Source: a virus
Virus record (IMG/VR): IMGVR_UViG_3300021091_000106
Coordinates: 1-52,646 of that record
Length of the DNA stretch: 52,646 bases
Strand: one strand, 5' to 3'
This document shows, piece after piece, positions 6,653 to 35,150 of the stretch. The number at the start of each line of letters is the position of its first letter. Within the stretch, counting starts at the first letter, position 1. The notes beneath the pieces were generated by a model. That model saw nothing but the letters and a program-made list of their open reading frames with translations. It ran no database searches and was not told the DNA's origin. The translations under genes were made by a program, and so were the position numbers.

Positions 6653-6665
6653 GAGGAGTTGACTA

Positions 6666-7256: not shown

Positions 7257-8026
7257 AGGTTCCTGATTTAGAGATAAAAAAGACTTTTTATTGTGGTAGT
7301 GGTGATCCTAGTTTAGTTTTGGGTAAAGGACCCTTGCAAACTAGAGGTGGATTTTATTGTGAAGGACCAGGAATTTTTGGTTCAATTCCACCATTTCTTA
7401 CTGCCACATTGATGGTTGGTCCACTTGAGAACTCAGATGTAATAATTCCTCCTTTAATTCCTGGAGCATTATGCACTGGAATCAATAATCCTTATTCAAT
7501 AGCTGTTGATGGACCATCAGCATTTTTGGGAGTTATTGATACAAATAATAATGTAAATGTTGGTGGTAATCTAATTACTCAAGGTGAAGTCATGTCCCGT
7601 TGTGGTGGACATATCCTTTCCGCTAAAAAGAATTTTGATATTCCTCACCCAACAAAAGATGGTTGGAGATTACGTCATACTTGCCCAGAAGGGCCATCTA
7701 ATGATGTATACATAAGGGGTAAATTACAAAATAAAAGCATAATTGAACTTCCAGAATACTGGAGAGAGTTGGTAGATTCTAATAGTATTACAGTCTCAAT
7801 TACTCCAGTAGGAACGCATCAAAATATTATTGTTAGAGAAATCTCAGATAATAAAGTATACCTTCATGCATCTACACCGATAAATTGTCATTATCATGTT
7901 TTTGGTGAGCGTAAAGACGGAGAAAAGTTGATTCCAGAATATGAAGGGTCAACACCAGCAGATTATCCTGGCAATAATGATGAATATTCTGTATCTGGAT
8001 TTCATTATGATACCAAGAGGATTTAA
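7253..8026 (+). CDS. Virion structural protein, paralogous C-terminal domain with next gene
   Basis: 257 residues starting at the ATGA overlap with the previous stop, with GGAGG upstream. The N-terminal half is unrelated to its neighbour; the C-terminal half (residues about 120-250) has KKNFDIPHPTKDGWRLRH, EGPSNDVYIRGK, ELPEYW, a INCHYHVFGERKDG block and STPADYPGN. The same blocks occur in the following gene, so the two share a domain that I read as a conserved cyanophage structural or fiber-tip domain. Its biochemical role is unknown. The rapid change of the N-terminal half suggests different attachment points for a common receptor- or trimer-forming domain. Confidence 0.75.
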   Translation: MKVPDLEIKKTFYCGSGDPSLVLGKGPLQTRGGFYCEGPGIFGSIPPFLTATLMVGPLENSDVIIPPLIPGALCTGINNPYSIAVDGPSAFLGVIDTNNNVNVGGNLITQGEVMSRCGGHILSAKKNFDIPHPTKDGWRLRHTCPEGPSNDVYIRGKLQNKSIIELPEYWRELVDSNSITVSITPVGTHQNIIVREISDNKVYLHASTPINCHYHVFGERKDGEKLIPEYEGSTPADYPGNNDEYSVSGFHYDTKRI

Positions 8027-8028
8027 TT

Positions 8029-8679
8029 ATGGCAGATATTTTTGTAGCAGATTTTACTAATAAAAGTACCTGTCTTGATGAGGGTATTACTGGACCTTTT
8101 TCTGCTAAGTTTGATTATATTTTAAAATCAACTACAGGAGATCCTGATTATCCAGCAGAAGCATGTACTCCTTGGATTCACTATAATGTTAAGGTTGGTA
8201 ATCTTAAGGCAGATGCACTTGTTCAAGCACAAGATGTTAAAACCGCTGTGGTTGGATCTTTGAATGCAAAATCTGCTATTTGGGATGCCAAAAAGTCATT
8301 TGATATTCAGCATCCCACTAAAAAAGACCATCGTCTTAGATATATTTGTTTAGAAGGACCAACTGCAGATGTGTATCTAAAGGGTAAATTGGTAGAGCAG
8401 TCCTATATTCAACTTCCAGATTATTGGAAAGACTTTGTTGATATGGAGACTCTTGTTATCAATCTCACTCCAAATGGACATTGGCAAGAATTATTTGTAG
8501 ATCGTATTGAATGGGGTGATAAAATTTACGTTAAGAATAATGCAGGGACTGCTATTAACTGCGATTACGTAGTCTATGGTGAACGTATTGATACTTCAAA
8601 GAATATTTCTGAATATCAGGGCTTGACACCAGCAGACTATCCAGGAGATAATAGGGAATATAATATCAACGGTAAGTGA
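8029..8679 (+). CDS. Virion structural protein, paralog of upstream gene
   Basis: 216 residues, AGAGG Shine-Dalgarno, 2 bases after the previous stop. It carries the same C-terminal domain: KKSFDIQHPTKKDHRLRY, EGPTADVYLKGK, QLPDYW, INCDYVVYGERID and LTPADYPGDN. The N-terminal 80 residues are distinct. Likely a short tail fiber or baseplate decoration protein made with its neighbour. The stop overlaps the start of the oxygenase gene by one base. Confidence 0.75.
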   Translation: MADIFVADFTNKSTCLDEGITGPFSAKFDYILKSTTGDPDYPAEACTPWIHYNVKVGNLKADALVQAQDVKTAVVGSLNAKSAIWDAKKSFDIQHPTKKDHRLRYICLEGPTADVYLKGKLVEQSYIQLPDYWKDFVDMETLVINLTPNGHWQELFVDRIEWGDKIYVKNNAGTAINCDYVVYGERIDTSKNISEYQGLTPADYPGDNREYNINGK

Positions 8680-9353
8680 TGCACCGAGTACATGAAGCGT
8701 TCCCTCTGATTGTTTACCAGGGGATGGTGGAGTGTCATGAACAAATCAAAAATCATCTTGATGAACTTCGTGACTATTGGTTTGATGGGTATCAGAACGA
8801 GAGTCCAGAATATTCTGGAAGAATTTTTGCACACCAAAAAGAGTCATGCAAACCATTCTTTCAAGAACTTCGGACTCATGTTGATAATTACTTTGATTAT
8901 TTGAGTGTTGATCACTCAAAATTAGATTATCATATCATTAAATCCTGGGTTGGTTATCACAAAGATGATGAAACCCCATCAGTAAAACCGCACAATCATA
9001 ACGCTTCAGATCTGAGTTTTGTTTATTATGTAAGTACAGGTGAGACATCCGATAAGTTTTGTATTGCCCAAGAAAAAAATCCCAATGAATGTGTTGGTGA
9101 TATGTTTACTGAAGCAATTCAAAAGAATTTAATTACTGGGTATAACCGATATAATTGTAATGTTTATAGTATTACTCCTATTGAGGGTAGTGTTTTAATT
9201 TTTCCGAGTAAAACTGGACATTTTACTCAAAAGTTTGCTGAAAGAAAAGAAGAAAGACTGGTTATTCCTGGAGACATTAGAGTTACTTTAAATCCATTTA
9301 ATCCAGACTACCATCAAGGATCTACTCACCCTTCTCAGTGGTTACAACTTTAA
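8679..9353 (+). CDS. 2OG-Fe(II) oxygenase-like protein
   Basis: 224 residues; ATG at 8679 is preferred over the adjacent in-frame GTG at 8676. Residues near 105-120 have the PHNHNASDLSFVYYV pattern, and near 170-185 GSVLIFPSKTGHFTQ, followed by basic residues: this is the His-x-His...His-plus-Arg layout of the phage oxygenase family that recalls PF13759. Members use 2-oxoglutarate and iron to hydroxylate substrates; the substrate here is unknown. It lies at the end of the baseplate operon, so it may modify a virion protein. It converges with, and overlaps by 32 bases, the minus-strand glycosyltransferase-like gene. Confidence 0.75.
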   Translation: MHRVHEAFPLIVYQGMVECHEQIKNHLDELRDYWFDGYQNESPEYSGRIFAHQKESCKPFFQELRTHVDNYFDYLSVDHSKLDYHIIKSWVGYHKDDETPSVKPHNHNASDLSFVYYVSTGETSDKFCIAQEKNPNECVGDMFTEAIQKNLITGYNRYNCNVYSITPIEGSVLIFPSKTGHFTQKFAERKEERLVIPGDIRVTLNPFNPDYHQGSTHPSQWLQL

Positions 9354-19014: not shown

Positions 19015-22000
19015 ATGGCTCTGGTCAACATTTATATTGACACTCTTAAGAGCGGCGTTAATTCATTTAATTGTGGTCAAACTCAATTTAGTTATGAACA
19101 ACGCCATAAAGACAGTGACTATGGTAAAGCAAAGCAAACTCTTGCTCAAACCAAGGATGCATATGTTCAATGTGGATGGTGGGAAAAGGTATCAACACGT
19201 AAAGATGGTAAAGACCGTGGTCATGATAAGGTAATCCATTCTTTTTTTGATACTCTTCCTGGAATTAAAAGGCTTGGCGGTCCTAATAGTGAGACCTTTG
19301 AGTTTGATCCTGAACTTTATACTCTTGATATGATTGTTCAGATGGTTCAAGAAAAATTCTTCTCTAATAAAGTACAAAAGTATGAAATATTTAACCCATT
19401 TCCTTTTCAGAATGAATTTTTGAAAAAAATTTCCAATGCATGGAAGCAAAAGAAATATCTAGAGTTTCTTCTTTTTGCTAAATGTCGTGCTGGCAAATCA
19501 GTGATGGTTTTAAAGCACATTGTAGATAGTAATTATAAACTTTCGGTAATTTGTTCGCGTCAAAAGTCTCCTGAGGAATCTTGGAAGAAAGATTCTAAGC
19601 GGTTCTTTCCTACAATCAAGTATATTTCTGTTAAAGATCTTTCTTGGGAAGTTCAACTTGAATATTGGATGAAGCGCGATGTTAATATTGTTCTTTGGGG
19701 AACAGTTCAAAGTATTATTAAGCGTCTTGATAAGATTTCTAATGTTGATTATCTTGCTTTTGATGAGTGTCATGTTGGTGGAACCGCCTCTCAATTTATA
19801 AAGGTTCGTGATACACTTAATACTCGTACTTGTTACATCTCTGGTACTGCTCATAAAGTTTCTTGGATGTTCCCTGAAGATGACCAGAAGTTTGTTTATA
19901 CTTATTTTGATGAACAACTTGATAGTCAAAAAGGAGTATTTGAACGTCCACGTCCTAAAATGAATGTTGCTTTTGCAAAATATCAAACTTCTGCATATAA
20001 AGAATTGTTTGGTGATGATCCTGATGCGATGAAAAATATCTTTATCATGAAAGATGATAAGTTCCTTTATGAGTCTCTTGTTCGTGAGTTTATTCATAAT
20101 TATTTTGGTCCTCAACGGGAGATTCGCATTGGAGAACGTCTTTTTAAAGGAACCTATCATATGATGGCAATGCCTAATGTTAAAGCATGTCACGCTTTCC
20201 AAGAATTGGTAAATTGTTATTACCCCGCTCTGGTTGTTACATCCGATACTACAAATGGACCAGATGATATCAATCGTTTTTTGAAAGAACATTCTAAAGC
20301 ATTAATTCTTACACAATCTGCAAATGTTCTTGGTTTAACCGCGAAAAAAATTGATACTGTTATTAATTGTCGTGGAGGAGATTCAATTGAGTTCTGGACT
20401 CAGTTTGCCTTTCGTGGTGGTTCTGGTGACCATGATTGGTGGGTAATTGATTTTGATGCTCAACGTTGTCTTCGTGTAATTCATGAGGCTTTTCAACTTG
20501 CATGTGACAATAATCCAACGCTTTCACAATATAGCGTGGTTGATTTTACTAATATTCATGAATGGAACAATGGATTTCAACTGCTTTCCAAAGAGATGCT
20601 TCAAGATGCCCTCTCTGCAGACACTGAAGTAACTATTTCTACTATTACTAGCATCCTGGAATCTTTGGATTTTACTAAACTTAATGATTTTAATTTGAAG
20701 ATTAAGTCTGCTATTACTACCATGATGAAGGAATCGCAACTCAATGATCAAGGTGCTAATAACAAGAGTTGTATTGTTCGGGAGATTGAACGGGTAAAAA
20801 AGATTGATGATTTTGATGAGTTGAAGAAACAAACCGTCAAGGCATTACTTGAGTCTATTCCTTTGACTATTTTCTACATTATCCGTAATGGACAAAACGT
20901 GTATTCAATTAATGATGTGATTGGTTCTGAAATTTATCCTTTTGTTACTGGTGATTATGAAGGTATTTTAGAAGAAGTCGTTCGCCAAAATTCGCATATT
21001 GTTCAAACTCTTACTCGTCGTATTGGTGTTGTTTCTAATATCATTCAAACAAGTATGAGGGATTCTGTATCTAATACAATTAATGAATTTTCAGTATCTT
21101 CACAAACTCAAAAGCATATCCCCACAAATCTTTTGGATTCTATGATTGATGACTGTAAGGATTTGTCTCAAACTTATATGTTTGGTGATCCCAGCGGATC
21201 TCATACTGCCCGTCTTCTTGAGCGTGGAATTGATTCTCAGGATCTTACTGTTTGGGAGAGTTGCGATAGTCATCGAAATCGTGTAAAATATATTGATAAT
21301 CGTGTAAAAGTGGTTGATTCTCATCCGAATATGAAATTTACTACTATTCTTGCTAATCCCCCATATAATGATCCTGCCGCTAAGGCAAAGAACAATAAAC
21401 TCTGGCCTAAAATTGTTAAACAACACCTTGAGTTGCTTGCTCCTGGTGGAGATCTGTGTGAGGTAACTCCTGCTTCTGTTCTTGGCATCACTGGAGAGTT
21501 TAAAAAGTTTCTTAAACTCTTCTCTACGGTTTATAATCTTAAACTGATTGATTATACTGCAGATGATTATTTTACTGAAAAAGTATCTATTTGTCGTTGG
21601 CATCTTGTCAATGAACCTTATCAAGGTAAAACTACTGTAATTACTAAAGAAGGTACGTTTGAATGGGATCTTCGTGATGGAGTTCCTATGTTTGGTGATG
21701 ATGTTCTTAAAAAATCTATTCTTCTAAAAATTGCTAATTCAAATCATCCTCGGATTCCTTTGAAGATGGGTCAAGCAATCGCCAAAGAAGACCATACCCC
21801 TGACGGAAAATATGAAGTATTTCACACTTCTAAAAAAATAGCGAGGACTGATATAGTTCCTACAACTGGGGATATATTGAAATTTATTGTTCCATTCTCC
21901 TCCACTTATAAGAAAGGAGGTATTTTTATCTCTAATGGACATGTAGGTATGCTTAATTGTTGGTGCCCTATCCCTTCTGAAGAAGAAGGAAATCGTCTAA

Positions 22001-22182
22001 GCAAAATCTTTGATCTTAAAATCATTCAATTTTATATTGATAATTATAAAAAAACCACTGGATTCACTGCTGCCATTAAAAATGGTGAAGTGCCTGAAAT
22101 TACAGACTATAATAATCTGTCTGAACAGTTTGGGTTTACTGGAGAAGAAGTTGATTATCTGAAGCGTATTAATGTCCTCTAA
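19015..22182 (+). CDS. Fused SF2 helicase / N6-adenine DNA methyltransferase-like protein
   Basis: 1055 residues. Helicase half: Walker A AKCRAGKS near residue 156, DECH box near 248, then ISGTAHK (motif III-like) near 280; C-terminal helicase motifs around 390-480 include a QSAN...GLTAK and QFAFRGGSGD block. This is the layout of helicase subunits of Type I/III and ISP restriction systems. Methyltransferase half: a degenerate motif I (MFGDPSGS, near 722) and a clear catalytic NPPY (near 781), followed by a beta-rich C-terminus (about 870-1055) that could be target recognition. No nuclease motif was recognised in the 110-residue N-terminus, which I cannot assign. Sigma70-type promoter upstream; the stop overlaps the next gene by 11 bases. 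Probable function: site-specific modification, with translocation; it may protect phage DNA or interfere with host restriction. Confidence 0.75.
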   Translation: MALVNIYIDTLKSGVNSFNCGQTQFSYEQRHKDSDYGKAKQTLAQTKDAYVQCGWWEKVSTRKDGKDRGHDKVIHSFFDTLPGIKRLGGPNSETFEFDPELYTLDMIVQMVQEKFFSNKVQKYEIFNPFPFQNEFLKKISNAWKQKKYLEFLLFAKCRAGKSVMVLKHIVDSNYKLSVICSRQKSPEESWKKDSKRFFPTIKYISVKDLSWEVQLEYWMKRDVNIVLWGTVQSIIKRLDKISNVDYLAFDECHVGGTASQFIKVRDTLNTRTCYISGTAHKVSWMFPEDDQKFVYTYFDEQLDSQKGVFERPRPKMNVAFAKYQTSAYKELFGDDPDAMKNIFIMKDDKFLYESLVREFIHNYFGPQREIRIGERLFKGTYHMMAMPNVKACHAFQELVNCYYPALVVTSDTTNGPDDINRFLKEHSKALILTQSANVLGLTAKKIDTVINCRGGDSIEFWTQFAFRGGSGDHDWWVIDFDAQRCLRVIHEAFQLACDNNPTLSQYSVVDFTNIHEWNNGFQLLSKEMLQDALSADTEVTISTITSILESLDFTKLNDFNLKIKSAITTMMKESQLNDQGANNKSCIVREIERVKKIDDFDELKKQTVKALLESIPLTIFYIIRNGQNVYSINDVIGSEIYPFVTGDYEGILEEVVRQNSHIVQTLTRRIGVVSNIIQTSMRDSVSNTINEFSVSSQTQKHIPTNLLDSMIDDCKDLSQTYMFGDPSGSHTARLLERGIDSQDLTVWESCDSHRNRVKYIDNRVKVVDSHPNMKFTTILANPPYNDPAAKAKNNKLWPKIVKQHLELLAPGGDLCEVTPASVLGITGEFKKFLKLFSTVYNLKLIDYTADDYFTEKVSICRWHLVNEPYQGKTTVITKEGTFEWDLRDGVPMFGDDVLKKSILLKIANSNHPRIPLKMGQAIAKEDHTPDGKYEVFHTSKKIARTDIVPTTGDILKFIVPFSSTYKKGGIFISNGHVGMLNCWCPIPSEEEGNRLSKIFDLKIIQFYIDNYKKTTGFTAAIKNGEVPEITDYNNLSEQFGFTGEEVDYLKRINVL

Positions 22183-22588
22183 AAATAAACACAATAAACT
22201 TTATGGATCTAAATTAGATAGATCTGACGAACGGATTAAGAAGACTCAGGAGGTTTTTACTCCTCCTGAGTTGATTGATAAAATGATTGCTGAGATACCA
22301 GAAGAAGTTCTTAGGAATCCAAATTCTACTTTTATTGATAACTGTGCTGGAGATGGTAACTTCTTAATTCAACTACTTAAAGCTCTTAGGAAGTATCATT
22401 CAGAGCAACATATTGTCGATAATATGTTATATGCTGTGGAGTTGATGGAAGACAATCATAAAGAGTTGTGTCGTAGACTTGACGTTCCAACAGATCACCC
22501 GCATTATGTGTGCTATAATGCCCTTGAGTATCATTATCGATTTGATGGTACAATGGGCCCAATCACCATTGACCAATTCTTGAACTGA
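22172..22588 (+). CDS. Methyltransferase fragment with motifs X and I but no catalytic motif
   Basis: 138 residues, starting inside the stop region of the helicase-methyltransferase gene. TQEVFTPPELIDKMI resembles the 'TPxEL' motif X of gamma-class N6-adenine methyltransferases, and FIDNCAGDGNFL is a good motif I (SAM binding). It ends after about one more strand and has no NPPY. The partner NPPY is in the upstream gene, whose own motif I is degenerate, so the two proteins may form one split enzyme. A decayed or truncated gene is the alternative. Confidence 0.65.
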   Translation: MSSKNKHNKLYGSKLDRSDERIKKTQEVFTPPELIDKMIAEIPEEVLRNPNSTFIDNCAGDGNFLIQLLKALRKYHSEQHIVDNMLYAVELMEDNHKELCRRLDVPTDHPHYVCYNALEYHYRFDGTMGPITIDQFLN

Positions 22589-24461: not shown

Positions 24462-24627
24462 ACTGATACATCTAAAGATTCAAGCAGCAATGCGCGAAAA
24501 GTATTTTGATGAAGAACAAATGAAATATTTGGGAGTTCGTGATGGAGAACATTGGTATCTTGTTGCCAATGAGCACGAGGTTCCAGTATCAGCAATTGAA
24601 GAGTTTGATCAAGTTGAAGATGAATGA
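24442..24627 (+). CDS. Small hypothetical protein
   Basis: 61 residues from ATG 24442, preferred over an in-frame TTG at 24415 because AGAGG lies about ten bases upstream. Acidic C-terminus. It overlaps both neighbours. Unknown function. Confidence 0.6.
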   Translation: MKISQSELIHLKIQAAMREKYFDEEQMKYLGVRDGEHWYLVANEHEVPVSAIEEFDQVEDE

Positions 24628-25102
24628 ATTTTTAGTAGAGGATGAAGTAAGTAATTACTTTAATCTTCTACTTGAATTTGTTTCTAATTATCCAGAAGTT
24701 TTTAGAGATGAGAAGCAGAGTTCTTTGATTGGAAACTGTTTTTATACTTTAAATCTTTTGAATTATATTGATACGGAAATCTTTTATAACTATATTGATA
24801 AACTTCGTTTGTTATGTGAGGATTTTTCAAATAGACAATTAAAGTATTTTTACGTTCATATGATTAATTACGAAAATGGTGGTAGAATGCACGTACATAA
24901 ACATGATCATAATGAAGATTATAGTTTTATACTTTACTTGAATTCTTGTAATGATGGAGAAACCATCCTTCATACAACTGAAGGTGAATATAAAGTTACT
25001 CCTGAAAGAAATAAAGTATTGCTATTTCCTTCAAACATACCACATTCAGCAGCATACTCTAAATCTAAAAGAGTTCTTGTTGGTGGATTAAAAATTAACT
25101 AA
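24620..25102 (+). CDS. 2OG-Fe(II) oxygenase-like protein
   Basis: 160 residues from ATG 24620, overlapping the previous stop; longer frames upstream do not fit the family start. HVHKHDHNEDYSFILYL near residue 90 gives metal-binding histidines, and KVLLFPSNIPHSAAYSK then a basic residue near 140-150 supplies the third histidine and the Arg/Lys that binds 2-oxoglutarate. It opens the radical-SAM/oxygenase island. Substrate unknown. Confidence 0.75.
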   Translation: MNEFLVEDEVSNYFNLLLEFVSNYPEVFRDEKQSSLIGNCFYTLNLLNYIDTEIFYNYIDKLRLLCEDFSNRQLKYFYVHMINYENGGRMHVHKHDHNEDYSFILYLNSCNDGETILHTTEGEYKVTPERNKVLLFPSNIPHSAAYSKSKRVLVGGLKIN

Positions 25103-25108
25103 AAAATT

Positions 25109-25285
25109 ATGGAAAAACAACAAAAAAGACGCGATGCATTTAATCTTTTTTATGAAAGCGTCTTAAAACCAGATCATGAGTTGCGTGAAGTTGCTCATGA
25201 GCAACAGTGTTATTATGAGTTGATGGATTGGAGACAAGAAATACTTACATATTTGGATAAACGAAGAATAGAAGAATTTAATTGA
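25109..25285 (+). CDS. Small hypothetical protein
   Basis: 58 residues, basic N-terminus (MEKQQKRRD), highly helical. It sits between an oxygenase and a radical-SAM gene with gaps of 6 and 1 bases, so it is in the same transcript. No family recognised. Confidence 0.65.
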   Translation: MEKQQKRRDAFNLFYESVLKPDHELREVAHEQQCYYELMDWRQEILTYLDKRRIEEFN

Positions 25286-25286
25286 T

Positions 25287-26105
25287 ATGTTAAAAGTACC
25301 TCACGAGATACAATTACATGTTACTCACTCTTGCAATTTAACTTGTGAGGGATGTACACATTATATGAATCAGGGGCACTCTGGATCTATTACTTTAGAG
25401 GAAGCTGCAAAGTGGATGAGTAATTGGAATGATAAAATTCTTCCGATGAGATTTACTTTAATGGGTGGCGAACCAGCATTACATCCAGATCTGACGGAAT
25501 TCGTATATCTTGCTAGGGAGATGTGGCCTAACTCTTATACAGAAGTTATTTCTAATGGATTTCATTTACATAAACATCCACATTTGTGGAAGGCTTTAAA
25601 GAGAACAAATACTATTCTCGGAGTATCTGTTCACTCTGATGGTGATCTTCAATACAGAGAAAAATTTGAGTCTGTATATGCGTTAATGAAAGAGTGGATT
25701 ACAAAAGGTGCTCCTGTAGAAATACGACCATCAATTATACATTGGATTAGGCAATATAAGGGTTTCGGTGATAAAATGGAACCATTTGAAGACAATGATC
25801 CGAAATCCAGTTGGAAGTGCTGTGTCTCTAAATTGTGTGTTCAATTACATGAGGGAAAACTTTGGAAGTGTCCAGCACTTGCATACTTACCAATGCAGGC
25901 ACAAAAGTATAATTTGTCTGAAAAATGGGATCCATATTTAAAATATGTTCCTTTAGATCATACCTGTAGTAAAGATGAACTAAAGCAATTTTTCACTAAA
26001 AAGGAAGAATCTTTTTGTTCAATGTGCCCCGCAAAAGAAGAATACTTTACTCCTGAGAATCCTCTCCTACCTCTAAGTCATTGGAAAAAGTTGTATGATA
26101 CCTGA
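25287..26105 (+). CDS. Radical SAM protein with C-terminal cysteine motifs
   Basis: 272 residues. CNLTCEGC near residue 16-23 is the CxxxCxxC 4Fe-4S/SAM motif; MGGEPALH and ISNGF are the further SAM-binding and barrel segments. After residue 180 come further cysteines (WKCCVSKLC, WKCPAL, FCSMCP), the pattern of an auxiliary cluster (SPASM-like). Such enzymes make peptide- or sugar-modifying radicals; the substrate is unknown. It has a clear paralog at 28746, and oxygenase genes lie beside both. Confidence 0.85.
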   Translation: MLKVPHEIQLHVTHSCNLTCEGCTHYMNQGHSGSITLEEAAKWMSNWNDKILPMRFTLMGGEPALHPDLTEFVYLAREMWPNSYTEVISNGFHLHKHPHLWKALKRTNTILGVSVHSDGDLQYREKFESVYALMKEWITKGAPVEIRPSIIHWIRQYKGFGDKMEPFEDNDPKSSWKCCVSKLCVQLHEGKLWKCPALAYLPMQAQKYNLSEKWDPYLKYVPLDHTCSKDELKQFFTKKEESFCSMCPAKEEYFTPENPLLPLSHWKKLYDT

Positions 26106-26748
26106 AGAGTTTGTGGAATATCCAGAAGATCCCCGAAACGTAGAGCACTTTGATTTCTGTGGCAATACAATTTACAGGGCTTATAATATGCTAAGTAAAT
26201 ATGATCAATCTAATTTATTAAAAGAGATTGATAATGAACTTGAAGTATGTGATGATAAGTGGGATTCCAGTGTAGAAGCAACAAATAGACTTCAAGATCG
26301 AAAATTATGGTATAAGACTAGTTGGACTAATTTTTTTAAATTAGTTAAGTCTCATTTGTATAACTATGCGGAGATAACCAACAATCCCAGGATCAAAGAA
26401 TATCATGTTCAATCATACTGGGCGAAGAGAATGAAGGGAGTGAGTGAAGAGAATTATACTCACGAGTTATACATCAATTATGGGAATAGTCACAGTCATG
26501 AGCACTTTGATTTGGGTATGATATATTATCTTAAGAATCCATCCAGAATATATGGAACTTTAATAGAAAACAAGGATAGAGAGATAATTATTCCTGGTGA
26601 TGAGAATTCTCTTTTGATTCATCATTCTCATATAAATCACCAACCAGTGATGCCACCACCAGTGGTTGCACAAAAGTATTATCGTTGTGTTATTGTGGTT
26701 GATTTTATGCACCCATCAAAGTTAAAAGCATATGAACGCAGCAGATAA
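26095..26748 (+). CDS. 2OG-Fe(II) oxygenase-like protein
   Basis: 217 residues starting 11 bases inside the radical-SAM gene. SHEHFDLGMIYYLKN near residue 140-155 has the His..Asp pair; LLIHHSHINHQP near 180-190 has the distal histidine and RCVIVV a basic residue. It directly follows a radical-SAM gene, as 28746 is directly preceded by two oxygenases, so the pair probably acts on one substrate. Confidence 0.75.
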   Translation: MIPEEFVEYPEDPRNVEHFDFCGNTIYRAYNMLSKYDQSNLLKEIDNELEVCDDKWDSSVEATNRLQDRKLWYKTSWTNFFKLVKSHLYNYAEITNNPRIKEYHVQSYWAKRMKGVSEENYTHELYINYGNSHSHEHFDLGMIYYLKNPSRIYGTLIENKDREIIIPGDENSLLIHHSHINHQPVMPPPVVAQKYYRCVIVVDFMHPSKLKAYERSR

Positions 26749-26965
26749 AATACAATACGCAAGTATTTTGACTAAAATCAATAAGGGGAAAATATCTGAG
26801 TTGACCGAAGATGATTATCTATGGTTAAAACAACATCCCACAATCATACCCGAAATCAGATGGCAAAGAAAAAAGTCTGAAGTAATGGAAATTAACAAAG
26901 ATTGTAAGGGAACCATCAACGAGATATTGCATAATTTAGATTTATCAGATAGAATGATGAGGTGA
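26732..26965 (+). CDS. Small hypothetical protein
   Basis: 77 residues overlapping the oxygenase by 17 bases. Helical, Lys/Glu-rich, with a TEDDYLWLKQHP block. Unknown function. Confidence 0.65.
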   Translation: MNAADKIQYASILTKINKGKISELTEDDYLWLKQHPTIIPEIRWQRKKSEVMEINKDCKGTINEILHNLDLSDRMMR

Positions 26966-26971
26966 TATAAT
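26966..26971 (+). promoter_or_regulatory. Candidate -10 box
   Basis: TATAAT after the stop at 26965; only a weak -35 (TTATCA) lies at 26942-26947, 18 bases upstream. Possible weak internal promoter for the HNH gene region. Confidence 0.35.
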
Positions 26972-26985
26972 TAGTATTGGTTCTG

Positions 26986-27180
26986 ATGCTTTCTATTTTT
27001 GATATTATGCACGACGAACGTCGTTATGGTTGGGTTGTTGATAAACGATATGATTGGATCAATATGCTTCATAAGATGGAAAAGTATAATCCAAAAAGAT
27101 TTGATGAATTTCAATATTCTAAGGAGACAATTTATCATCACTTAGACAGAATACAGCAAGAGCAAAATGTTTATGACTAA
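26986..27180 (+). CDS. Small hypothetical protein
   Basis: 64 residues from ATG 26986, preferred over an in-frame TTG at 26977. Rich in Tyr, Arg and Asp (MHDERRYGWVVDKRYDW). Ends two bases before the HNH gene. Unknown function. Confidence 0.6.
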   Translation: MLSIFDIMHDERRYGWVVDKRYDWINMLHKMEKYNPKRFDEFQYSKETIYHHLDRIQQEQNVYD

Positions 27181-27182
27181 GT

Positions 27183-27662
27183 ATGGAACATTTAAAGATT
27201 AAACCAAACCAAACTATTCTTGTTCTCAATTCAAGTTATGAACCAATCAATTTTACTAATTGGAAGAGGGCGGTTATTTTAGTTTTAAAGGAAAAGGTTC
27301 AAGTCATATCTGAAAGAGTAATTAGATTACTGAGTTATATTAAAGTCCCGATTAATTATGCTGCCAGGTGCCGACCATCAAGATCAATGATTTATAAAAG
27401 AGATCGTAATACCTGCCAATATTGTGGATCAACGCATAGATTAACTATAGATCATGTTCTTCCCCGTAGTAAAGGTGGTGAGGATAATTGGGAAAATTTA
27501 GTTGTTGCATGTTCTACATGCAATACTAAAAAGGGGAATAGACTATTAGAACATACTAATATGAGATTAGTTCGTCAACCACGAGCACCTTGGAATAAAG
27601 TTGCATTTGATTTGGCAAATTGTAACGTGCCTGAATGGAAAGAATATTCTTACGCTGACTAG
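27183..27662 (+). CDS. HNH endonuclease
   Basis: 159 residues. The HNH fold is clear: zinc-binding CQYCG and CSTC pairs, the LTIDHVLPRSKGG block (metal-binding Asp-His), NWENLVVAC with the central Asn, and a basic tail (RAPWNK). A standalone HNH nuclease with an N-terminal 70-residue part, common in cyanophages, and often a homing or mobile nuclease. It interrupts the radical-SAM/oxygenase island, so it may have brought or split flanking genes. Confidence 0.9.
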   Translation: MEHLKIKPNQTILVLNSSYEPINFTNWKRAVILVLKEKVQVISERVIRLLSYIKVPINYAARCRPSRSMIYKRDRNTCQYCGSTHRLTIDHVLPRSKGGEDNWENLVVACSTCNTKKGNRLLEHTNMRLVRQPRAPWNKVAFDLANCNVPEWKEYSYAD

Positions 27663-27672
27663 GAGATTTTAA

Positions 27673-28224
27673 ATGTTTTTTCGTAAATTAAATAGACAAT
27701 TTTTTGTAGGTTCCTATCTTAAAACTGGTAAAAAAATTGAATATGGAATGGATACTCCATTTGGATTTGCTGGAATTAAATATTCATATATCAACACTAA
27801 AGATGAAAGCGGTCTTCTTGAGGTAATTCCAGAATCTTATAGGGACAACTGCACACTATCTTTGATGGAATTGAATTATAAGATTCCTCCTCATACTGAT
27901 AGTAACATTGAGGCAATCATCAACTTTTATATTAAGACAGATAGATGTGTAACTCAATTTTATTATCCACAAGAGGAAGCGTCCACAACTAAAATTGCAA
28001 ATCAAACAGATGGTGCAATCTTCCATGAAGGTCATCTAAAAAAATCTGTAAGATTTATGGCACACCCTGGAGATGCATATCTCCTTGATGTATCTAAACC
28101 ACACTCGGTCTATCCTATGGAAGCAGGACTCCCTGATCGTAAAGCAATTTGTTTACAAATTCTTTATAAGTCTTTTGATGAAGCAGTAGAGATGTTAAAA
28201 GAGACAGGATACATTGATGAATAA
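27673..28224 (+). CDS. Oxygenase-fold protein, aspartyl hydroxylase-like
   Basis: 183 residues with a good Shine-Dalgarno (AGGAG, 7 bases upstream). IPPHTDSN near residue 76 gives a His-x-Asp pair; SKPHSVYP near 145 gives the second His, and DRKAICLQILY the anchoring basic residue. The layout recalls aspartyl/asparaginyl beta-hydroxylase-type cupins. A divergent non-catalytic member cannot be ruled out. It overlaps the next oxygenase by 8 bases. Confidence 0.65.
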   Translation: MFFRKLNRQFFVGSYLKTGKKIEYGMDTPFGFAGIKYSYINTKDESGLLEVIPESYRDNCTLSLMELNYKIPPHTDSNIEAIINFYIKTDRCVTQFYYPQEEASTTKIANQTDGAIFHEGHLKKSVRFMAHPGDAYLLDVSKPHSVYPMEAGLPDRKAICLQILYKSFDEAVEMLKETGYIDE

Positions 28225-28759
28225 TATAGAAGTTATTGATAATTATCTCCACAAAAGAGAACATCAATTAATTTATGATTACTTTACTGGTGCCTTAGAT
28301 AAGGGAGATACCGCAAATTCTTGTACATGGACTTTTTTCCCTGGATGTAGTATGTTGGGTGATGAAGATAATTGGTTTCACTTTACACAATTAATTTTTG
28401 CCTCACATACTATTTTAAGTCCATCTTTTGATTTGATGCGACCCATTATACAAAAAGAAAACATGTCAGCAATTGCTAGAATTAAGGCAAATTGTATGAT
28501 AATGACTGAACAACTAAAGGTTTTTACTAATGGATTTCACTGTGATTTTAGGGGACATTTAACAACAGGAATTTATTATATAAATTCAAATGATGGATAT
28601 ACTTTGTTTGAAAATGGAACAAAAGTTAAAAGTGTTGCAAATAGATTCTGCAAATTCGATTGTAATTTAAAACACACTGCAACTACGTGTACAAATTCAA
28701 CCACACGCTTATTAATTAATTTTAATTATCATTCTCATCCTAAAGATGAAACAGTTTGA
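28217..28759 (+). CDS. 2OG-Fe(II) oxygenase
   Basis: 180 residues from ATG 28217; an in-frame TTG immediately before it is less likely. FHCDFRGHLTTGIYYIN near residue 100-115 has the His-x-Asp pair, and LKHTATTCTNSTTRLLINF the distal His and Arg. Full set of oxygenase residues. Starts inside the previous stop and ends inside the following radical-SAM start, so translation is coupled. Confidence 0.8.
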   Translation: MNNIEVIDNYLHKREHQLIYDYFTGALDKGDTANSCTWTFFPGCSMLGDEDNWFHFTQLIFASHTILSPSFDLMRPIIQKENMSAIARIKANCMIMTEQLKVFTNGFHCDFRGHLTTGIYYINSNDGYTLFENGTKVKSVANRFCKFDCNLKHTATTCTNSTTRLLINFNYHSHPKDETV

Positions 28760-29597
28760 TACCAAACAGATAGAACTGCATGTTACTCATGCATGTAATT
28801 TTTCATGTGAGGGATGCTCTCATTACTCTAATCATGGACACTCTGGCACACTAAATCTAGAAACTGCAAAAGAATGGCTATATATTTGGGGTCAAAGAGT
28901 CAAACCTAAAACATTTGTTATACTTGGTGGAGAACCAACTCTTAATAAAGAATTGGTCGATCTTGTATATTTGGTGAGGATGATATATCCAGATCCATAT
29001 ACTCAAATTGATTTAGTTTCAAATGCTAGTTTTTTGCACTTACATCCCAAGTTACCAAAAGCTTTGATTGCGACTCAAACTAATCTTGCAATATCAATTC
29101 ATAGTACAACACATAAGGACTACGTAAAAAAGTTTAAAACGGGATATAATCTTGCCAAACAGTGGAAGCATGATCTTGGAGTTCATGTTGAATTTTGGGA
29201 TTATACTAACGAACATTGGACTCCACAATATAAAGGGTTCGGTTCAAACATGATTCCTTACGAGGATAATAATTCTCGTAAAAGTTGGGAAATTTGTATC
29301 TCTAAACATGCTATTCAGTTGCATGAAAATAAACTTTGGAAGTGCCCAGCATTAGCATATTTGCCAATGCAATCTAAAAAATATAATCTTAGTGCTAAAT
29401 GGGAACCATATTTAAAATATGCTCCATTAGATGTAAGTTGCACAGACGATGAATTGGAAGAATTTTTAGGTAGAGAAGATGAATCATATTGTTCAATGTG
29501 TCCCGCAAATAAGGTTAAAAATTTTGTAAAAGAAGATCCAACACTACCAGTAAGTTATTGGGAGAAAAGATATGATAACATGGGGAATATCATCTAA
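28746..29597 (+). CDS. Radical SAM protein, paralog of 25287
   Basis: 283 residues, coupled to the preceding oxygenase (14-base overlap). CNFSCEGC near residue 17, LGGEPTLN, and the C-terminal WKCPALAYLPMQ and YCSMCP blocks mirror the protein at 25287 but the middle region differs. Same inferred chemistry with probably a different substrate. It overlaps the carbamoyltransferase start by 26 bases. Confidence 0.85.
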   Translation: MKQFDTKQIELHVTHACNFSCEGCSHYSNHGHSGTLNLETAKEWLYIWGQRVKPKTFVILGGEPTLNKELVDLVYLVRMIYPDPYTQIDLVSNASFLHLHPKLPKALIATQTNLAISIHSTTHKDYVKKFKTGYNLAKQWKHDLGVHVEFWDYTNEHWTPQYKGFGSNMIPYEDNNSRKSWEICISKHAIQLHENKLWKCPALAYLPMQSKKYNLSAKWEPYLKYAPLDVSCTDDELEEFLGREDESYCSMCPANKVKNFVKEDPTLPVSYWEKRYDNMGNII

Positions 29598-30996
29598 TAG
29601 TCATAATGCTGCTATGTCAGTATTTGTAAAAGACAAATTGGTATTCGCCAGTGAGAGTGAACGATTTAGTAAAATTAAAAATGACCCATATATATCGGAC
29701 TCATTGTTAAATTATGCTTTGAGATATGGAAAACCAGAATTAATCTGCTGGTATGAGAATCCTCTAAAAAAGAGGATGAGGCAAATTTATGCTGGTCAAG
29801 GACCATTTGTTAATAATTTTGAGAGATATTACGAATGTGAACATAAATTCTTTAACCACCACTATACACATGCATGTGGTGGTTATTTTACCAGTAAATT
29901 TAAACATGCTGCTGTTCTTGTTATTGATGCTATTGGTGAATTCCAAACACTTACAATTTGGGAAGCATCTGGTAAAGACTTAAAGTTAAAATATGAATTA
30001 AAATATCCAAATAGTATTGGTTTATTATATTCTGCAATGACTCAAAGATGCGGATTAAAACCTAATGAAGAAGAATATATCTTAATGGCATTATCTGCTT
30101 TAGGTGATAAGAGCAAGTTAAAAGATGCTATCTTTGATGATTTTATAACTGATGATTTTAAATGTAAGGTCAATTTACATCGTGGATGTAAGAATTGGAG
30201 ACCAGAAGAATCTAAAGAAGATATTGCAGCTGCTACTCAAGAAGTATATGAAATACTTTTTAATAATGCATTGAGATTGACTAAAAAATTAGTTCATACT
30301 AATAATCTTGTATTGATGGGTGGATGTGCTTTAAATTGTGTTGCTAATCGACATGCATATAACCACTTTAAGAACGTGTGGATAATGCCAGCACCTGGAG
30401 ATAGTGGTTCTGCGATTGGTGCAGTGTTAGCACATAAAAAGAAACATATCAAATTTACTCCATATCTTGGATATTATTTGCCACATAAGCATACAAATAT
30501 TCAAATAGTAAATTATTTGTATGAACATAAAGTTTGTGGTCTTGCGCGAGGTCGAGCAGAATTTGGACCAAGGGCATTGGGAGCAAGAAGTCTTATTGCA
30601 GATCCAACGGATCCAAATATAAAAGATAAGGTTAATAAGATAAAAAATAGAGAATCTTATAGACCATTCTCTCCAGTTGTTCCAATAGAGTTTGCAAATA
30701 CTTATTTTGATATGCATCATGATTTAGTGGAGAGTCCATTTATGCAACATGCTGTTAGATGTAAGTATCCAGAAAAGTTTCCTGGGATCGTGCATGTTGA
30801 TGGGACAAGTCGATTGCAGACTGTTAAAAAAAGTGATGCTCCTAGACTTTATAATCTTTTATATCAGTGGAAGGAAAAAACTGGACATCCTATGCTATTG
30901 AATACTAGTTTAAATATTAAAGGACAACCAATACTAAATGATGAAATAGATTGTGATAAGTGGTCTAGACTTTACAATATTCAAATATTTTCATGA
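29572..30996 (+). CDS. Carbamoyltransferase, NodU/CmcH family
   Basis: 474 residues. N-terminal Kae1-like part: SSNSHNAAMSVF, FNHHYTHACGGY (metal/phosphate histidines) and VIDAIGE. C-terminal YrdC-like part: GRAEFGPRALGARSL, KNRESYRPFSPVVP and SRLQTV. These are all signature blocks of the family that moves a carbamoyl group from carbamoyl phosphate to a hydroxyl (as in NodU, TobZ). It is somewhat shorter than usual and its C-terminal tail is trimmed. Sugar carbamoylation is the usual role; carbamoylation of a hydroxymethyl base in phage DNA is an alternative known for some phages. It overlaps the SGNH hydrolase by ATGA. Confidence 0.9.
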   Translation: MITWGISSNSHNAAMSVFVKDKLVFASESERFSKIKNDPYISDSLLNYALRYGKPELICWYENPLKKRMRQIYAGQGPFVNNFERYYECEHKFFNHHYTHACGGYFTSKFKHAAVLVIDAIGEFQTLTIWEASGKDLKLKYELKYPNSIGLLYSAMTQRCGLKPNEEEYILMALSALGDKSKLKDAIFDDFITDDFKCKVNLHRGCKNWRPEESKEDIAAATQEVYEILFNNALRLTKKLVHTNNLVLMGGCALNCVANRHAYNHFKNVWIMPAPGDSGSAIGAVLAHKKKHIKFTPYLGYYLPHKHTNIQIVNYLYEHKVCGLARGRAEFGPRALGARSLIADPTDPNIKDKVNKIKNRESYRPFSPVVPIEFANTYFDMHHDLVESPFMQHAVRCKYPEKFPGIVHVDGTSRLQTVKKSDAPRLYNLLYQWKEKTGHPMLLNTSLNIKGQPILNDEIDCDKWSRLYNIQIFS

Positions 30997-31775
30997 CAAT
31001 ATTAAAATTAACTGAAAGAATTGATAATAAATTATTACTTCCAAATAAAGAATTACTTGTTGGAGTTTGCAAGTGGTTTGATCAAGATAGTGAAGTATTA
31101 TATCAAAAAAATTTAAAAGAACTTCCAAAAGAGTGGAGATTTAGGACAAAAACCGTTGAATATAATATTAACAGTGCTGGTTATCGAACAAAAGAATTTG
31201 ATAAAATTAATTGGGCAAAATCGATTGTAGTTTTTGGAGATTCTTGCGTTTTTGGTGTTGGGTTGCCTGAGGAAGATACATTATGCTATAAAATACAGAA
31301 AGCACTTAATATTCCTGTAGTTAATTTGGGTGCTGCAGGGTCGTCTTCACTATATACTCTTCATAATGCTGCATTATTAAGTGAATCATATCCAACACCA
31401 AGAGCAATTGTAAGTTTGTGGACCTCTCCATATAGACTACCATATTACACCAATGATAGAGTTATGAACTGTGGTAATTGGAATTATGATCGATTTAAAA
31501 TTGGTTATTATTGGAATGAAAACAAGGATAATGCGATAATCCAATTAAAATTAAATGCCATAGCATTTAGAGAAATGTGGAAGAATAGGACTAATTATTT
31601 TGAACTAAGTTTATTCCCAGATACCGCTCAGATTTTACAATGTAATTTTGTAAATCAAATTGATTTTGCCAGAGATATGAGGAAGCAAAAGTCTGGATAT
31701 TATTCCGCACATCCAGGAGAGAAGACAAATCAATTTGCCGCAGAAAAGGTAATTGCTGGGTTGCAGATTGGGTGA
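30993..31775 (+). CDS. SGNH-hydrolase-like protein
   Basis: 260 residues. VVFGDSCVFGVG near residue 75 is a GDS block with the nucleophile Ser; NLGAAGSSS is the glycine block; SAHPGEKTN is the His block. SGNH proteins act as esterases or acyltransferases on carbohydrates. A block V Asp three residues before the His is not visible. It overlaps the carbamoyltransferase by ATGA, so a shared sugar target is likely. A paralog lies at 32757. Confidence 0.75.
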   Translation: MTILKLTERIDNKLLLPNKELLVGVCKWFDQDSEVLYQKNLKELPKEWRFRTKTVEYNINSAGYRTKEFDKINWAKSIVVFGDSCVFGVGLPEEDTLCYKIQKALNIPVVNLGAAGSSSLYTLHNAALLSESYPTPRAIVSLWTSPYRLPYYTNDRVMNCGNWNYDRFKIGYYWNENKDNAIIQLKLNAIAFREMWKNRTNYFELSLFPDTAQILQCNFVNQIDFARDMRKQKSGYYSAHPGEKTNQFAAEKVIAGLQIG

Positions 31776-31789
31776 TTCTGTGTTATCAT
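31761..31789 (+). promoter_or_regulatory. Candidate weak promoter
   Basis: TTGCAG, 17-base spacer, TATCAT. It overlaps the end of the SGNH gene and could serve the small genes from 31812. Confidence 0.35.
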
Positions 31790-31811
31790 AATAAGAGATG
31801 CTATAGAGGAC

Positions 31812-31961
31812 ATGGCAATCCGCACATTTTCTGACAAAAATTCAAATGATTGGAGTTGGGAAGAGACTCCAGAAACAATTGAAGCATTAAAGCAACTTCA
31901 TAATACTGTAACTCAGGTAAATGAGAATAAAGTTCTGAAACCAAAGCCTGTAAAGAAATGA
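31812..31961 (+). CDS. Small hypothetical protein
   Basis: 49 residues, AGAGGA upstream. Lys/Glu-rich and helical. Overlaps the next gene by ATGA. Unknown function. Confidence 0.6.
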   Translation: MAIRTFSDKNSNDWSWEETPETIEALKQLHNTVTQVNENKVLKPKPVKK

Positions 31962-32131
31962 CAGAAGATAAGAAGTTGATTGATGATTGCTTTTACGTTG
32001 ATTCAAAAAAATATGGACTCTGGTATTCAACAGACAAAGAAGGTAACGGACTTATCACGGCTCTCACTGAAAAGTCATGTATATCAGGAACCCGTTTTTA
32101 TCTTAAAGGACGGCAGGAAGGTTGGTCTTAG
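31958..32131 (+). CDS. Small hypothetical protein
   Basis: 57 residues (starts MTEDKKLIDDCFYVD). Part of the small-gene chain between the two SGNH genes. No family recognised. Confidence 0.6.
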   Translation: MTEDKKLIDDCFYVDSKKYGLWYSTDKEGNGLITALTEKSCISGTRFYLKGRQEGWS

Positions 32132-32156
32132 ACCAAAACCTATGAAGGTAATGTAG

Positions 32157-32324
32157 ATGGAAAACTCTAAAGAATATCCATATCATGAATTAGACCCAAC
32201 AACTCCTTGGTATGAGTGGTTGATGTATTGTGAGATATGTCATCAATTAAACGTTGTTGGGCAACCATCTTTAGGTAGATTCGCTGCATATAGACGTTAT
32301 TTAAAATCGGTAGGTGTTTTATGA
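32157..32324 (+). CDS. Small hypothetical protein
   Basis: 55 residues (MENSKEYPYHELDP start), Tyr- and Arg-rich C-terminus. Overlaps the next start by ATGA. Unknown function. Confidence 0.6.
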   Translation: MENSKEYPYHELDPTTPWYEWLMYCEICHQLNVVGQPSLGRFAAYRRYLKSVGVL

Positions 32325-32587
32325 TGATTAAAAGATTTGTTGACTGGTTCTTTGCATCAGACAAAGAGAAGAAAGTGATTGTAGATTGTGCTGACAACTT
32401 TGTTGGAAGTAAGTTTACTTTACTTGACCTTATCCAGTCTTTGGAAACAAGATTGGAGAGACTTGAACGGGAAAACGTAGAGACAACAAATGCTCTCTAT
32501 GAGATGGAGAATAGACTTCAAGCACAAATCGATGCTCATTGCCCACCAATATATAGTATGAATGATTATTCTTTGGGAGACAAGTAA
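32321..32587 (+). CDS. Small coiled-coil hypothetical protein
   Basis: 88 residues starting ATGATG; ETRLERLERENVETTNALYEM gives a strong heptad-like coiled coil. N-terminal part is hydrophobic and basic (KRFVDWFFAS), possibly membrane-associated. Unknown function. Confidence 0.65.
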   Translation: MMIKRFVDWFFASDKEKKVIVDCADNFVGSKFTLLDLIQSLETRLERLERENVETTNALYEMENRLQAQIDAHCPPIYSMNDYSLGDK

Positions 32588-32760
32588 TGTACGAACTTGA
32601 TGATTTTGAAAAAGCACTTGCTCATTTCGGAACTCGTGTTGATGTTATCATTGCTATGGAAATGGGTGGTAAAATTGATGGTCAATCTGCATATAAAGAA
32701 ATTAAGGCAGAATTAAAAGAACTTAAAAGAGCAAAAAAGCAATACGCTAAAGAACAGTGA
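32587..32760 (+). CDS. Small hypothetical protein
   Basis: 57 residues overlapping the upstream stop; Lys/Glu-rich helical end. It overlaps the second SGNH gene start by GTGA. Confidence 0.6.
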   Translation: MYELDDFEKALAHFGTRVDVIIAMEMGGKIDGQSAYKEIKAELKELKRAKKQYAKEQ

Positions 32761-33533
32761 AGGTTAATCCCAATATCATAAGATCTATCAATTCTTCTGA
32801 TTTTATTCCTCTTCCAAACATAACAGTTCAAAATTTTGAACAATTCAAATGGAAAGGTGATGATATATCTGGATCTTGGGATTTTTTTGGATCAGATGAT
32901 TATAATAATTATCAAAATAATTTAAAAATACAACCATTAAATTGGTATTATCGACGCAATCAAATAAAATATACTCTTAATTCGCATGGGTATAGAGCGA
33001 AGGAATTTAAAGATATTAATTGGAAAGATTCTATAGTTATTTTTGGTTGCTCATATATCTTTGGGACTGGTGTGGATGATTCACATACAATACCTGCAGT
33101 CTTAGAAAAACTTTGTAAAACACCTGTAATTAATTTGGGAATGGGTGGGTCATCTATACAATTTGCCTTACATAATTCTTTAATGCTTTATAAAAAGTAT
33201 GGTTCTCCAAAATGTGTCATTTATGGGATGCCAGGTATTACAAGATATTTGATGTATCAAAGAAATCATGTAGAATTAAAACTTGATTGTGATAATACTA
33301 AACTTGTAGATCATTTGGTTCCTTTTAATCTTGTAAATGTTGAGTTAATTAGGAATTTATGGGAAAATAAGAGTCAATATTATGAATTTTCATTATTTCC
33401 AACAACATCAAAAATATTAGGATGTGATTTGTTTCATCCTATACCCGAGGATTATGCTAGGGACATGAGTCATCCTGGTATTGAATCCAACAAATTAATC
33501 GCACAAAAGATTTACAACACCTTCAGTTTATGA
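32757..33533 (+). CDS. SGNH-hydrolase-like protein, paralog of 30993
   Basis: 258 residues from a GTG start at 32757 inside the upstream GTGA. VIFGCSYIFGTG has GCS in place of GDS, keeping the Ser; NLGMGGSSI and SHPGIESN follow. About the same length and layout as the protein at 30993. The changed block I may alter or abolish activity. Probably acts with the carbamoyltransferase on a sugar. Confidence 0.7.
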   Translation: MKVNPNIIRSINSSDFIPLPNITVQNFEQFKWKGDDISGSWDFFGSDDYNNYQNNLKIQPLNWYYRRNQIKYTLNSHGYRAKEFKDINWKDSIVIFGCSYIFGTGVDDSHTIPAVLEKLCKTPVINLGMGGSSIQFALHNSLMLYKKYGSPKCVIYGMPGITRYLMYQRNHVELKLDCDNTKLVDHLVPFNLVNVELIRNLWENKSQYYEFSLFPTTSKILGCDLFHPIPEDYARDMSHPGIESNKLIAQKIYNTFSL

Positions 33534-33643
33534 TTAAATATGTTAAGAAGATATTCAATACATTTGTAGAATATCTTGAAAATCAAAAAAGTAAAAAATT
33601 GGCCAAGCAATTAAGTAAAGAAGATCCTTTTATTTACAAGTAA
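33530..33643 (+). CDS. Very short hypothetical protein
   Basis: 37 residues (MIKYVKKIFNTFVEYLENQK start), basic and amphipathic. Starts at an ATGA overlap with the SGNH stop. Could be a peptide or not expressed. Confidence 0.45.
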   Translation: MIKYVKKIFNTFVEYLENQKSKKLAKQLSKEDPFIYK

Positions 33644-33645
33644 TC

Positions 33646-33948
33646 ATGACAAAAATTTATGAGTCTCCTGATAAAGGAGAGACTATTAGAGAAAGAGAAT
33701 TTAATCAGGCATCTGAACCTAAAAAGACCTGGACTTTAGAAGTTGAGAAGGTTCATGAAGAATATTTTATTAGTCTCCCAGATGATCTGCTTGATGCTGC
33801 CAACTTAAAAGAGGGTGACAATGTAGAATGGGTTGACAATGGAGATGGTTCATTTATTATGAAAAAACTTCCTCCAATGACTTATGATGATATGATTGCT
33901 GAGGGTTGGACAATGACTGCAGATGGATTTTGGATAAAGGATAAATAA
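33646..33948 (+). CDS. AbrB/MazE-like small protein
   Basis: 100 residues. Residues about 35-75 (YFISLPDDLLDAANLKEGD then VEWVDNGDGSFIMKK) resemble the swapped-hairpin AbrB fold of transition-state regulators and antitoxins; a C-terminal addition (YDDMIAEGWTMTADGFW) follows. No toxin gene is adjacent, so a DNA-binding or host-regulatory role is inferred. A late box overlaps its stop. Confidence 0.6.
   Translation: MTKIYESPDKGETIREREFNQASEPKKTWTLEVEKVHEEYFISLPDDLLDAANLKEGDNVEWVDNGDGSFIMKKLPPMTYDDMIAEGWTMTADGFWIKDK
33940..33947 (+). promoter_or_regulatory. T4-like late promoter box for collar genes
   Basis: GATAAATA, at the stop of the AbrB-like gene, 27 bases before the ATG at 33975. Confidence 0.55.
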
Positions 33949-33974
33949 GTAAATAAAAGAAATATTATTGTAAG

Positions 33975-34538: not shown

Positions 34539-34539
34539 T

Positions 34540-35115: not shown

Positions 35116-35127
35116 ATATGTTATAAT
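35100..35127 (+). promoter_or_regulatory. Overlapping early-type promoter and late-type box
   Basis: TATAAT at 35122-35127 with a weak -35 (TTGCTC at 35100-35105, 16-base spacer), and an ACTAAATA late-type box at 35111-35118. They share the same leader of the gene at 35151, so it may be made at two times. Confidence 0.45.
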
Positions 35128-35150
35128 ACAATTACTATTTTGATTTAATC

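Follow-up and report, generated by a model that had tools for sequence, protein, structure and literature searches.

A candidate two-subunit DNA methyltransferase with a separate cofactor half and a fused helicase in a T4-like marine cyanophage

Do two overlapping phage genes encode a single DNA methyltransferase divided between two proteins? This question is raised by IMG/VR virus record IMGVR_UViG_3300021091_000106, a 52.6-kb record (52,646 nucleotides, nt) that we refer to in its entirety as the window. Its gene order is T4-like, and the virus is a T4-like marine cyanophage. Between a large tail-fibre-like gene and a uvsW-like helicase gene, the plus strand encodes a protein of 1055 amino acids (aa), the large subunit (19015..22182), followed by a 138-aa protein (22172..22588) that starts inside the large gene and overlaps it by 11 nt. 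Both open reading frames (ORFs) had been described in an initial annotation made from the sequence alone, which proposed either a split modification enzyme or an anti-restriction device. Hereafter, S denotes the 138-aa cofactor-half protein and M the catalytic partner bearing the NPPY motif; viral and bacterial relative loci fetched by the scans in this analysis are labeled L004 to L289. We consider it probable that the pair constitutes one two-subunit enzyme of the restriction-modification type, in which S would supply S-adenosylmethionine binding to the large catalytic subunit.

Motif analysis, with methyltransferase motifs named by roman numerals, revealed a division of motifs between the two proteins. 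S contains motif X (EVFTPPEL, including FTP), motif I (FIDNCAGDGNFL, 22331-22366), motif II (AVELMEDN), and a III-like NALEY, and its C-terminal end precedes the position of motif IV, which is absent from it. The large protein carries AKCRAGKS (residues 155-162), DECH (250-253), GDPSGSHT (724-731; 21184-21207), and NPPY (781-784; 21355-21366); it has no motif X and its motif I lacks GxG, with intact copies of both located in S. The motifs listed in the initial annotation, including the weak motif I (GDPSGS) of the large protein and the TPPEL, good motif I, and missing NPPY of the 138-aa protein, were all confirmed in the translations. The accompanying claim that the two proteins share one complete motif set held for X-I-II-III in S and NPPY in the large protein, but the large protein also has a degenerate I-II-III-like segment before motif IV (residues ~718-772; 21166..21330, +). 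Because this degenerate half is present in both sequence and model, a large protein that merely lacks motifs I-III was ruled out for the window. Motifs X, I, II, and III are therefore found in one gene and motif IV onward in a linked gene, as in a split amino-methyltransferase, with the M of the window retaining a degenerate N-half.

Database comparison gave the same partition. The large protein matched phrog_22930 over residues 14-711 (E 2.9e-200) and phrog_3689, "DNA methyltransferase", over residues 724-1034 (E 2.2e-31), and S matched phrog_4376 (E 4.1e-61); these three pieces are separate genes in other phages. On sequence grounds, the motif content and PHROGs matches of the pair are not chance. 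The catalytic half and the C-terminal putative target-recognition region (21331..22179, +) were assigned from phrog_3689, the Eco57I Pfam family, and alignment. Pfam scored Eco57I (1e-4) and ResIII (0.003) in the large protein, both below their cut-offs, and N6_Mtase (1.6e-4) in S, which passes its cut-off, while NCBIfam and PADLOC returned no match for the large protein. Profile matches of S in the PDB were CamA, M.BseCI, and the EcoR124I M protein; a PDB sequence-profile search with the N-terminal and helicase part of the large protein gave no match. A profile search of the window found no second M or S, and an N-half profile match at 31776-31958 (E 2e-4) covered 32 residues only and looked like chance.

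To follow the pair across viruses, viral contigs were scanned for S, yielding 367 loci that encode S relatives, from which the 80 best were retained, and for M, with 80 loci retained; 26 of the 80 M-scan contigs were shared with the S-scan set by contig name. A tblastn search found S relatives in 67 of 50,697 phage records (hosts: Synechococcus 38, Klebsiella 11, Aeromonas 8, Prochlorococcus 4, and others). With further relatives in bacteria, the idea that S is unique to the window phage was rejected. The ratio of nonsynonymous to synonymous substitution rates (dN/dS) of S was 0.059, 0.080, and 0.064 against L018, L019, and L025, the selection estimates being drawn from five hand-picked relatives with two further S comparisons saturated, and by this measure constraint within the locus was strongest on the S gene. 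In the M-scan set, S kept FTP in 66 of 66 cases and GxG in 65 of 66, and the single exception (L177) fails the regular expression only, with CGDG visible by eye. Patterns covering motifs I and II served to retrieve the S loci, whereas the M side was not pattern-selected; because the fetch patterns contain motif I, conservation of the S motifs in the S-scan and bacterial sets is partly by construction. Judged from these comparisons, S is a conserved protein under strong purifying selection. The half-domain nature of S, with no catalytic motif, would also fit a functionless, decayed remnant of a longer methyltransferase, but with 367 viral loci, dN/dS values of 0.059-0.080, all key motifs intact, and free-standing forms widespread in bacteria, we regard a remnant as very improbable, and a broken gene copy was rejected on the viral evidence. 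The initial annotation had held that the split model would fail if the 138-residue gene were broken in all relatives; it proved conserved, constrained, and intact in its motifs.

Linkage between S and M was nearly complete. An M was paired with S in 79 of the 80 S-scan loci (75 overlapping or abutting, 4 within 2.5 kb upstream), and in the remaining locus S lies too near the start of the sequence to show an upstream gene. S was present in 78 of the 80 M-scan loci (55 overlapping or abutting, 22 up to 2.5 kb downstream of M, and 1 preceding it) and was not seen in L170 or in L201, where the contig breaks off. Both genes were found in each of 12 phage records searched in full.

The length of sequence preceding motif IV was then determined for 149 distinct M proteins with a complete start. 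It was 20 residues or fewer in 43, 21-45 in 1, 46-140 in 71, and more than 140 in 32, and no motif IV was found in 2. The 43 proteins have no room for a cofactor half because they start within 20 residues of motif IV, and this count is conservative because ORF starts were taken as the earliest ATG, GTG, or TTG. Such bare M proteins include ACG-2014f gp191 and P-SSM2 gp036, whose N-terminus reads MKFTLAIGNPPYG and whose gene overlaps S. Among the 103 M proteins with a longer leader, 48 had DPxGxH, the group to which the window M belongs, 44 had no recognizable motif I, and 11 had a GxG-type motif I. In the M-scan set, 59 of 82 M proteins had an N-half without GxG and 9 had no N-half. Separately, in L027, L029, L031-L034, L107, and L110 the large gene is represented by two overlapping ORFs, one for the helicase and one for a 468-aa M (6001-7794 and 7740-9146 in L107), as though many phages shared a single break point.

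Natural fusions showed how the two halves may fit together. Aeromonas phage Aeh1 p090 (415 aa) starts with MHFDYMIANPPYS and ends with motifs X-I-II-III, and three relatives are alike, so that NPPY comes first and X-I-II-III last (L094-L097). This single-chain order, which defines the beta class, was found only in these fused relatives, the window having two genes. The Aeh1 fusion model had a mean predicted local distance difference test score (pLDDT) of 67 and a predicted template modeling score (pTM) of 0.58; most of the S half scored above 90 in pLDDT, and scores at the beginning of the catalytic half varied from block to block (44-94). In a PDB comparison of this model, the 19 top rows spanned both halves, the first match being M.MboIIA (Z 10.4, 143 aligned residues, root-mean-square deviation (rmsd) 3.0). 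Because these matches span both halves, the M and S halves can, as modeled, form one permuted methyltransferase fold with motif IV first and X-I-II-III last. M.TaqI matched only residues ~1-115 of the model (22-24% identity), and CamA matched one half at a time. We take M.MboIIA, M.RsrI, CcrM, and PvuII to be of beta order and M.TaqI and CamA of gamma order. The beta-order amino-methyltransferases M.MboIIA, M.RsrI, and CcrM, with motif IV before X and I, were thus the best structural matches of the fused homologue, whereas the sequence of each half resembles gamma-order M.TaqI and CamA, and the halves in the window are separate genes. One bare M of L181 aligns closely with the M portion of the Aeh1 protein. 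Two further observations concern related proteins: a small contig binned as Paludibacteraceae, which may be of phage origin, encodes a single 448-aa permuted M-S fusion (L210, 2755-4101), and the "adenine-specific methyltransferase" A0A1V0SG34 (1324 aa) of the giant virus Hokovirus HKV1 matched the window model in BFVD (1170 alignment columns, 15% identity, TMq 0.60).

A scan of 84,980 bacterial genomes with a motif I pattern was performed, and the best 80 of its loci were listed. Free-standing S followed by M occurred in 68 of these 80, with 64 pairs overlapping or separated by at most 30 nt, 3 by 31-500 nt, and 1 further apart; no S-M pair was present in the other 12. In all 68 pairs M had DPxxK[ST]G[VI]F as its motif I, in which the first GxG glycine is missing, whereas S, the pattern-selected member, kept GxG. 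The N-halves of bacterial M proteins were clearly homologous to S (hhalign 99.3, E 1.2e-20). The bacterial cassettes are annotated as "N-6 DNA methylase" (~220 aa), "Eco57I restriction-modification methylase", and a "GIY-YIG nuclease" helicase, with examples in Rhizobium pRphaN671a, Lactococcus p1196B, Bifidobacterium, and Cohnella; L247, L285, L287, and L289 add a T5orf172-helicase gene. They resemble the window in placing a separate S, its motif I intact, next to a large methyltransferase whose motif I is degenerate, together with a T5orf172-type N-terminal domain and an SF2 helicase, and in Lactococcus p1196B the helicase and methyltransferase are likewise fused, in one 1456-aa protein beside S. 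They differ from the window in that S precedes M, and from phages in that the N-half of M is clearly S-homologous with DPxxK[ST]G, whereas phage M proteins are further decayed or have lost the half.

These results bear on whether the large subunit could instead methylate by itself, GDPSGSH being an unusual motif I, with S as a regulatory or DNA-contacting partner (a spare cofactor half) that would tune activity or determine the methylated strand and not fill a missing part. Several findings lean this way and weigh against a two-subunit enzyme. The N-half of the window M is conserved (GDPSGSH), with a ratio of nonsynonymous to synonymous polymorphism (pN/pS) of 0.14-0.35 against five relatives, and has no detectable sequence similarity to S (probability 0.1); a GDPxGxH segment of this kind is found in 48 of the 103 longer M proteins. 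In the predicted model, this N-half shows strands and helices in a methyltransferase-like order before motif IV; the initial annotation had named a complete, active methyltransferase fold of the large protein alone as fatal to the split, and the modeled order bears on fold, not on activity. The M proteins of L161-, L157-, and L178-type loci have a GxG-type motif I with S still present. The modest mean pLDDT of the Aeh1 fusion and the selection of viral S-scan and bacterial S proteins by motif I patterns also weigh against the two-subunit reading. Because the window M keeps a conserved, methyltransferase-like N-half of its own, S fills no empty slot there; it could replace, pair beside, or regulate that half. 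However, 43 of 149 M proteins without an N-half still sit beside S, in bacteria the motif I of the paired M lacked GxG in all 68 pairs among the best 80 loci, and what the natural fusions unite is precisely S and a bare M, so self-sufficiency appears unlikely to us. The proposal of a split modification enzyme is thus well supported by the conservation of S, its pairing with an NPPY gene, the many bare partners, and the natural fusions, and is qualified by the degenerate N-half of the window M; it is better supported in relatives than in the window.

The remainder of the large subunit comprises, in order, a GIY-YIG/T5orf172-like N-terminal domain, an SF2 helicase, and a helical linker, followed by the degenerate N-half, the NPPY catalytic half, and the putative target-recognition region. 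The SF2 helicase/translocase (residues ~120-525; 19372..20589, +), with its Walker A motif AKCRAGKS and DECH, best matched RadD 8h5y in VIA-align (Z 25.6, 321 aligned, rmsd 3.4). The VIA matches listed for the 1055-aa model were all helicases, so that this comparison covers the helicase part of the chain, and the SF2 assignment from the model is secure. For residues 1-115 (19015..19359, +), the initial annotation saw no nuclease motif. This is probably wrong, because the N-terminal ~110 residues look like a T5orf172/GIY-YIG-type domain: the pattern NIY...GQT...R...D..K...D..IH.F...E.F aligns with T5orf172 domains of relatives with a same-family helicase, and hhalign gave a weak match (E 5.9e-4, probability 29). 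Pfam gave no match in these 115 aa of the window protein, and positional equivalents in L197 (28.6 bits), L247 (39.1), L285 (42.8), L287 (37.6), and L289 (25.3) passed Pfam T5orf172 (cut-off 20), while Klebsiella PKO111 gp114 passed LEM-3_GIY-YIG (57.1 bits, cut-off 27). At this position, relatives thus carry GIY-YIG-type domains that belong to different subfamilies. The domain is probably a GIY-YIG/T5orf172-type nuclease, an assignment that depends on the hhalign match and on relatives and to that extent weakens the restriction-modification interpretation. In Bellamy and ACG-2014f C90 (L005 6445-7008; L004 7482-8084), a protein of 187-200 aa between or beside S and M has a D...[VI]QxK pattern and adjoins a second UvsW-like helicase; from its sequence it is a possible separate PD-(D/E)XK nuclease, and Pfam Mrr_cat was not significant on the 200-aa ACG-2014f protein (13 bits, E 0.12).

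In the two-subunit mechanism that we propose, S would be the S-adenosylmethionine-binding half (X, I, II, III) of an amino-methyltransferase, and the large subunit would contribute the catalytic half (NPPY), putative target recognition, an SF2 translocase, and a probable GIY-YIG-type nuclease. Docking of S on the catalytic half would complete the methyltransferase, which would probably produce N6-methyladenine. Because the large subunit would choose the methylated site, the phage would thereby mark its own DNA, and the translocase and nuclease may then act on unmarked DNA of the host or of a competing phage. Alternatively, modification alone may matter, shielding phage DNA as an anti-restriction device in which the helicase and N-terminal domain no longer cut. 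Phages commonly use methyltransferases to protect their DNA from host restriction, according to PMC7824862, and many relatives consist of M and S only, with no fused nuclease or helicase (P-SSM2 type), which suggests that modification alone is often enough. The window gene, however, keeps a constrained helicase and a recognizable N-terminal domain, and its counterparts in relatives are GIY-YIG-type domains drawn from more than one subfamily; we consider this alternative rather doubtful, though worth keeping in view.

Comparison with described systems placed the pair near several known arrangements. Type ISP enzymes (LlaGI, LlaBIII) have the same order of nuclease, SF2 helicase, linker, methyltransferase, and recognition region in one chain, as defined in PMC4666363. 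The window shares the SF2 helicase-like ATPase in the same chain (RadD match, Walker A, DECH); whereas Type ISP enzymes have an Mrr-family nuclease and a complete methyltransferase in one chain, its N-terminal 115 aa align weakly with T5orf172/GIY-YIG and not Mrr, and its large subunit lacks a complete methyltransferase, the cofactor half being in the second gene. M.AquI, as cited in PMC5944983, likewise forms one methyltransferase from two polypeptides; it is a cytosine-5 enzyme whose chain is divided after motif VIII and before the recognition domain, whereas the window encodes an amino-methyltransferase split between motifs III and IV. The DnmA-YeeB-YeeC cluster of Bacillus contains a methyltransferase, a helicase, and a T5orf172 protein, but as three separate proteins, and the passages of PMC9973331 consulted describe no free-standing cofactor half. 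Split C5 enzymes such as M.AquI and one-chain Type ISP enzymes are known. In open-licence full texts, no account was found of an amino-methyltransferase that is divided between motifs III and IV and whose cofactor subunit is shared, with subscription papers and REBASE outside the scope of the search. The initial annotation likewise remarked that the arrangement had not been seen described. It is not confined to this phage: bacterial plasmids carry the pair annotated as "N-6 DNA methylase" and "Eco57I restriction-modification methylase".

Elsewhere in the window, the region 24539-37434 encodes two radical SAM proteins, a carbamoyltransferase, and two 2-oxoglutarate-Fe(II) oxygenases (Pfam), with an HNH endonuclease at 27183-27662.

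Several loci combine one S with more than one M. L181 has, in tandem (4114-7534 and 8403-8888), three bare M proteins with NPPY and a fourth with NIPF beside a single S; L161 has five M and one S, L157 has two M, and two or more M occurred in 11 of the 80 M-scan loci (the gene coordinates of L178-L180 are identical). In ACG-2014f, isolate C24 combines a single S with three M, and in isolate C90 the bare M gp191 lies ~104 kb from S. In S-CAM7 0809CC03 (L006 3-227; MT586120.1 42718-44132), a second S adjoins an M whose N-half resembles S. We tentatively suggest, at somewhat less than an even chance, a modular system in which S is a shared cofactor module or switch for several interchangeable catalytic-recognition subunits per phage, the cofactor half of M having decayed stepwise as S took over; two-subunit adenine methyltransferases would then form a general class across phages and bacteria. 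The decay series itself, from DPAIGGGQF through DPxxK[ST]G and GDPxGxH to complete loss, is put forward with the same reserve. If this is true, many adenine methyltransferases annotated singly as "N-6 DNA methylase" or "Eco57I" work only as two-part enzymes, in which the small part may serve several large ones. The assignment of methylomes to genes would then change, and it would become clear why lone expression of such genes might fail. The family would further provide a natural series of an enzyme losing half its fold to a partner, as well as a supply of ready-made split methyltransferases, and T4-like marine phages would carry a compact machine of the restriction-modification type.

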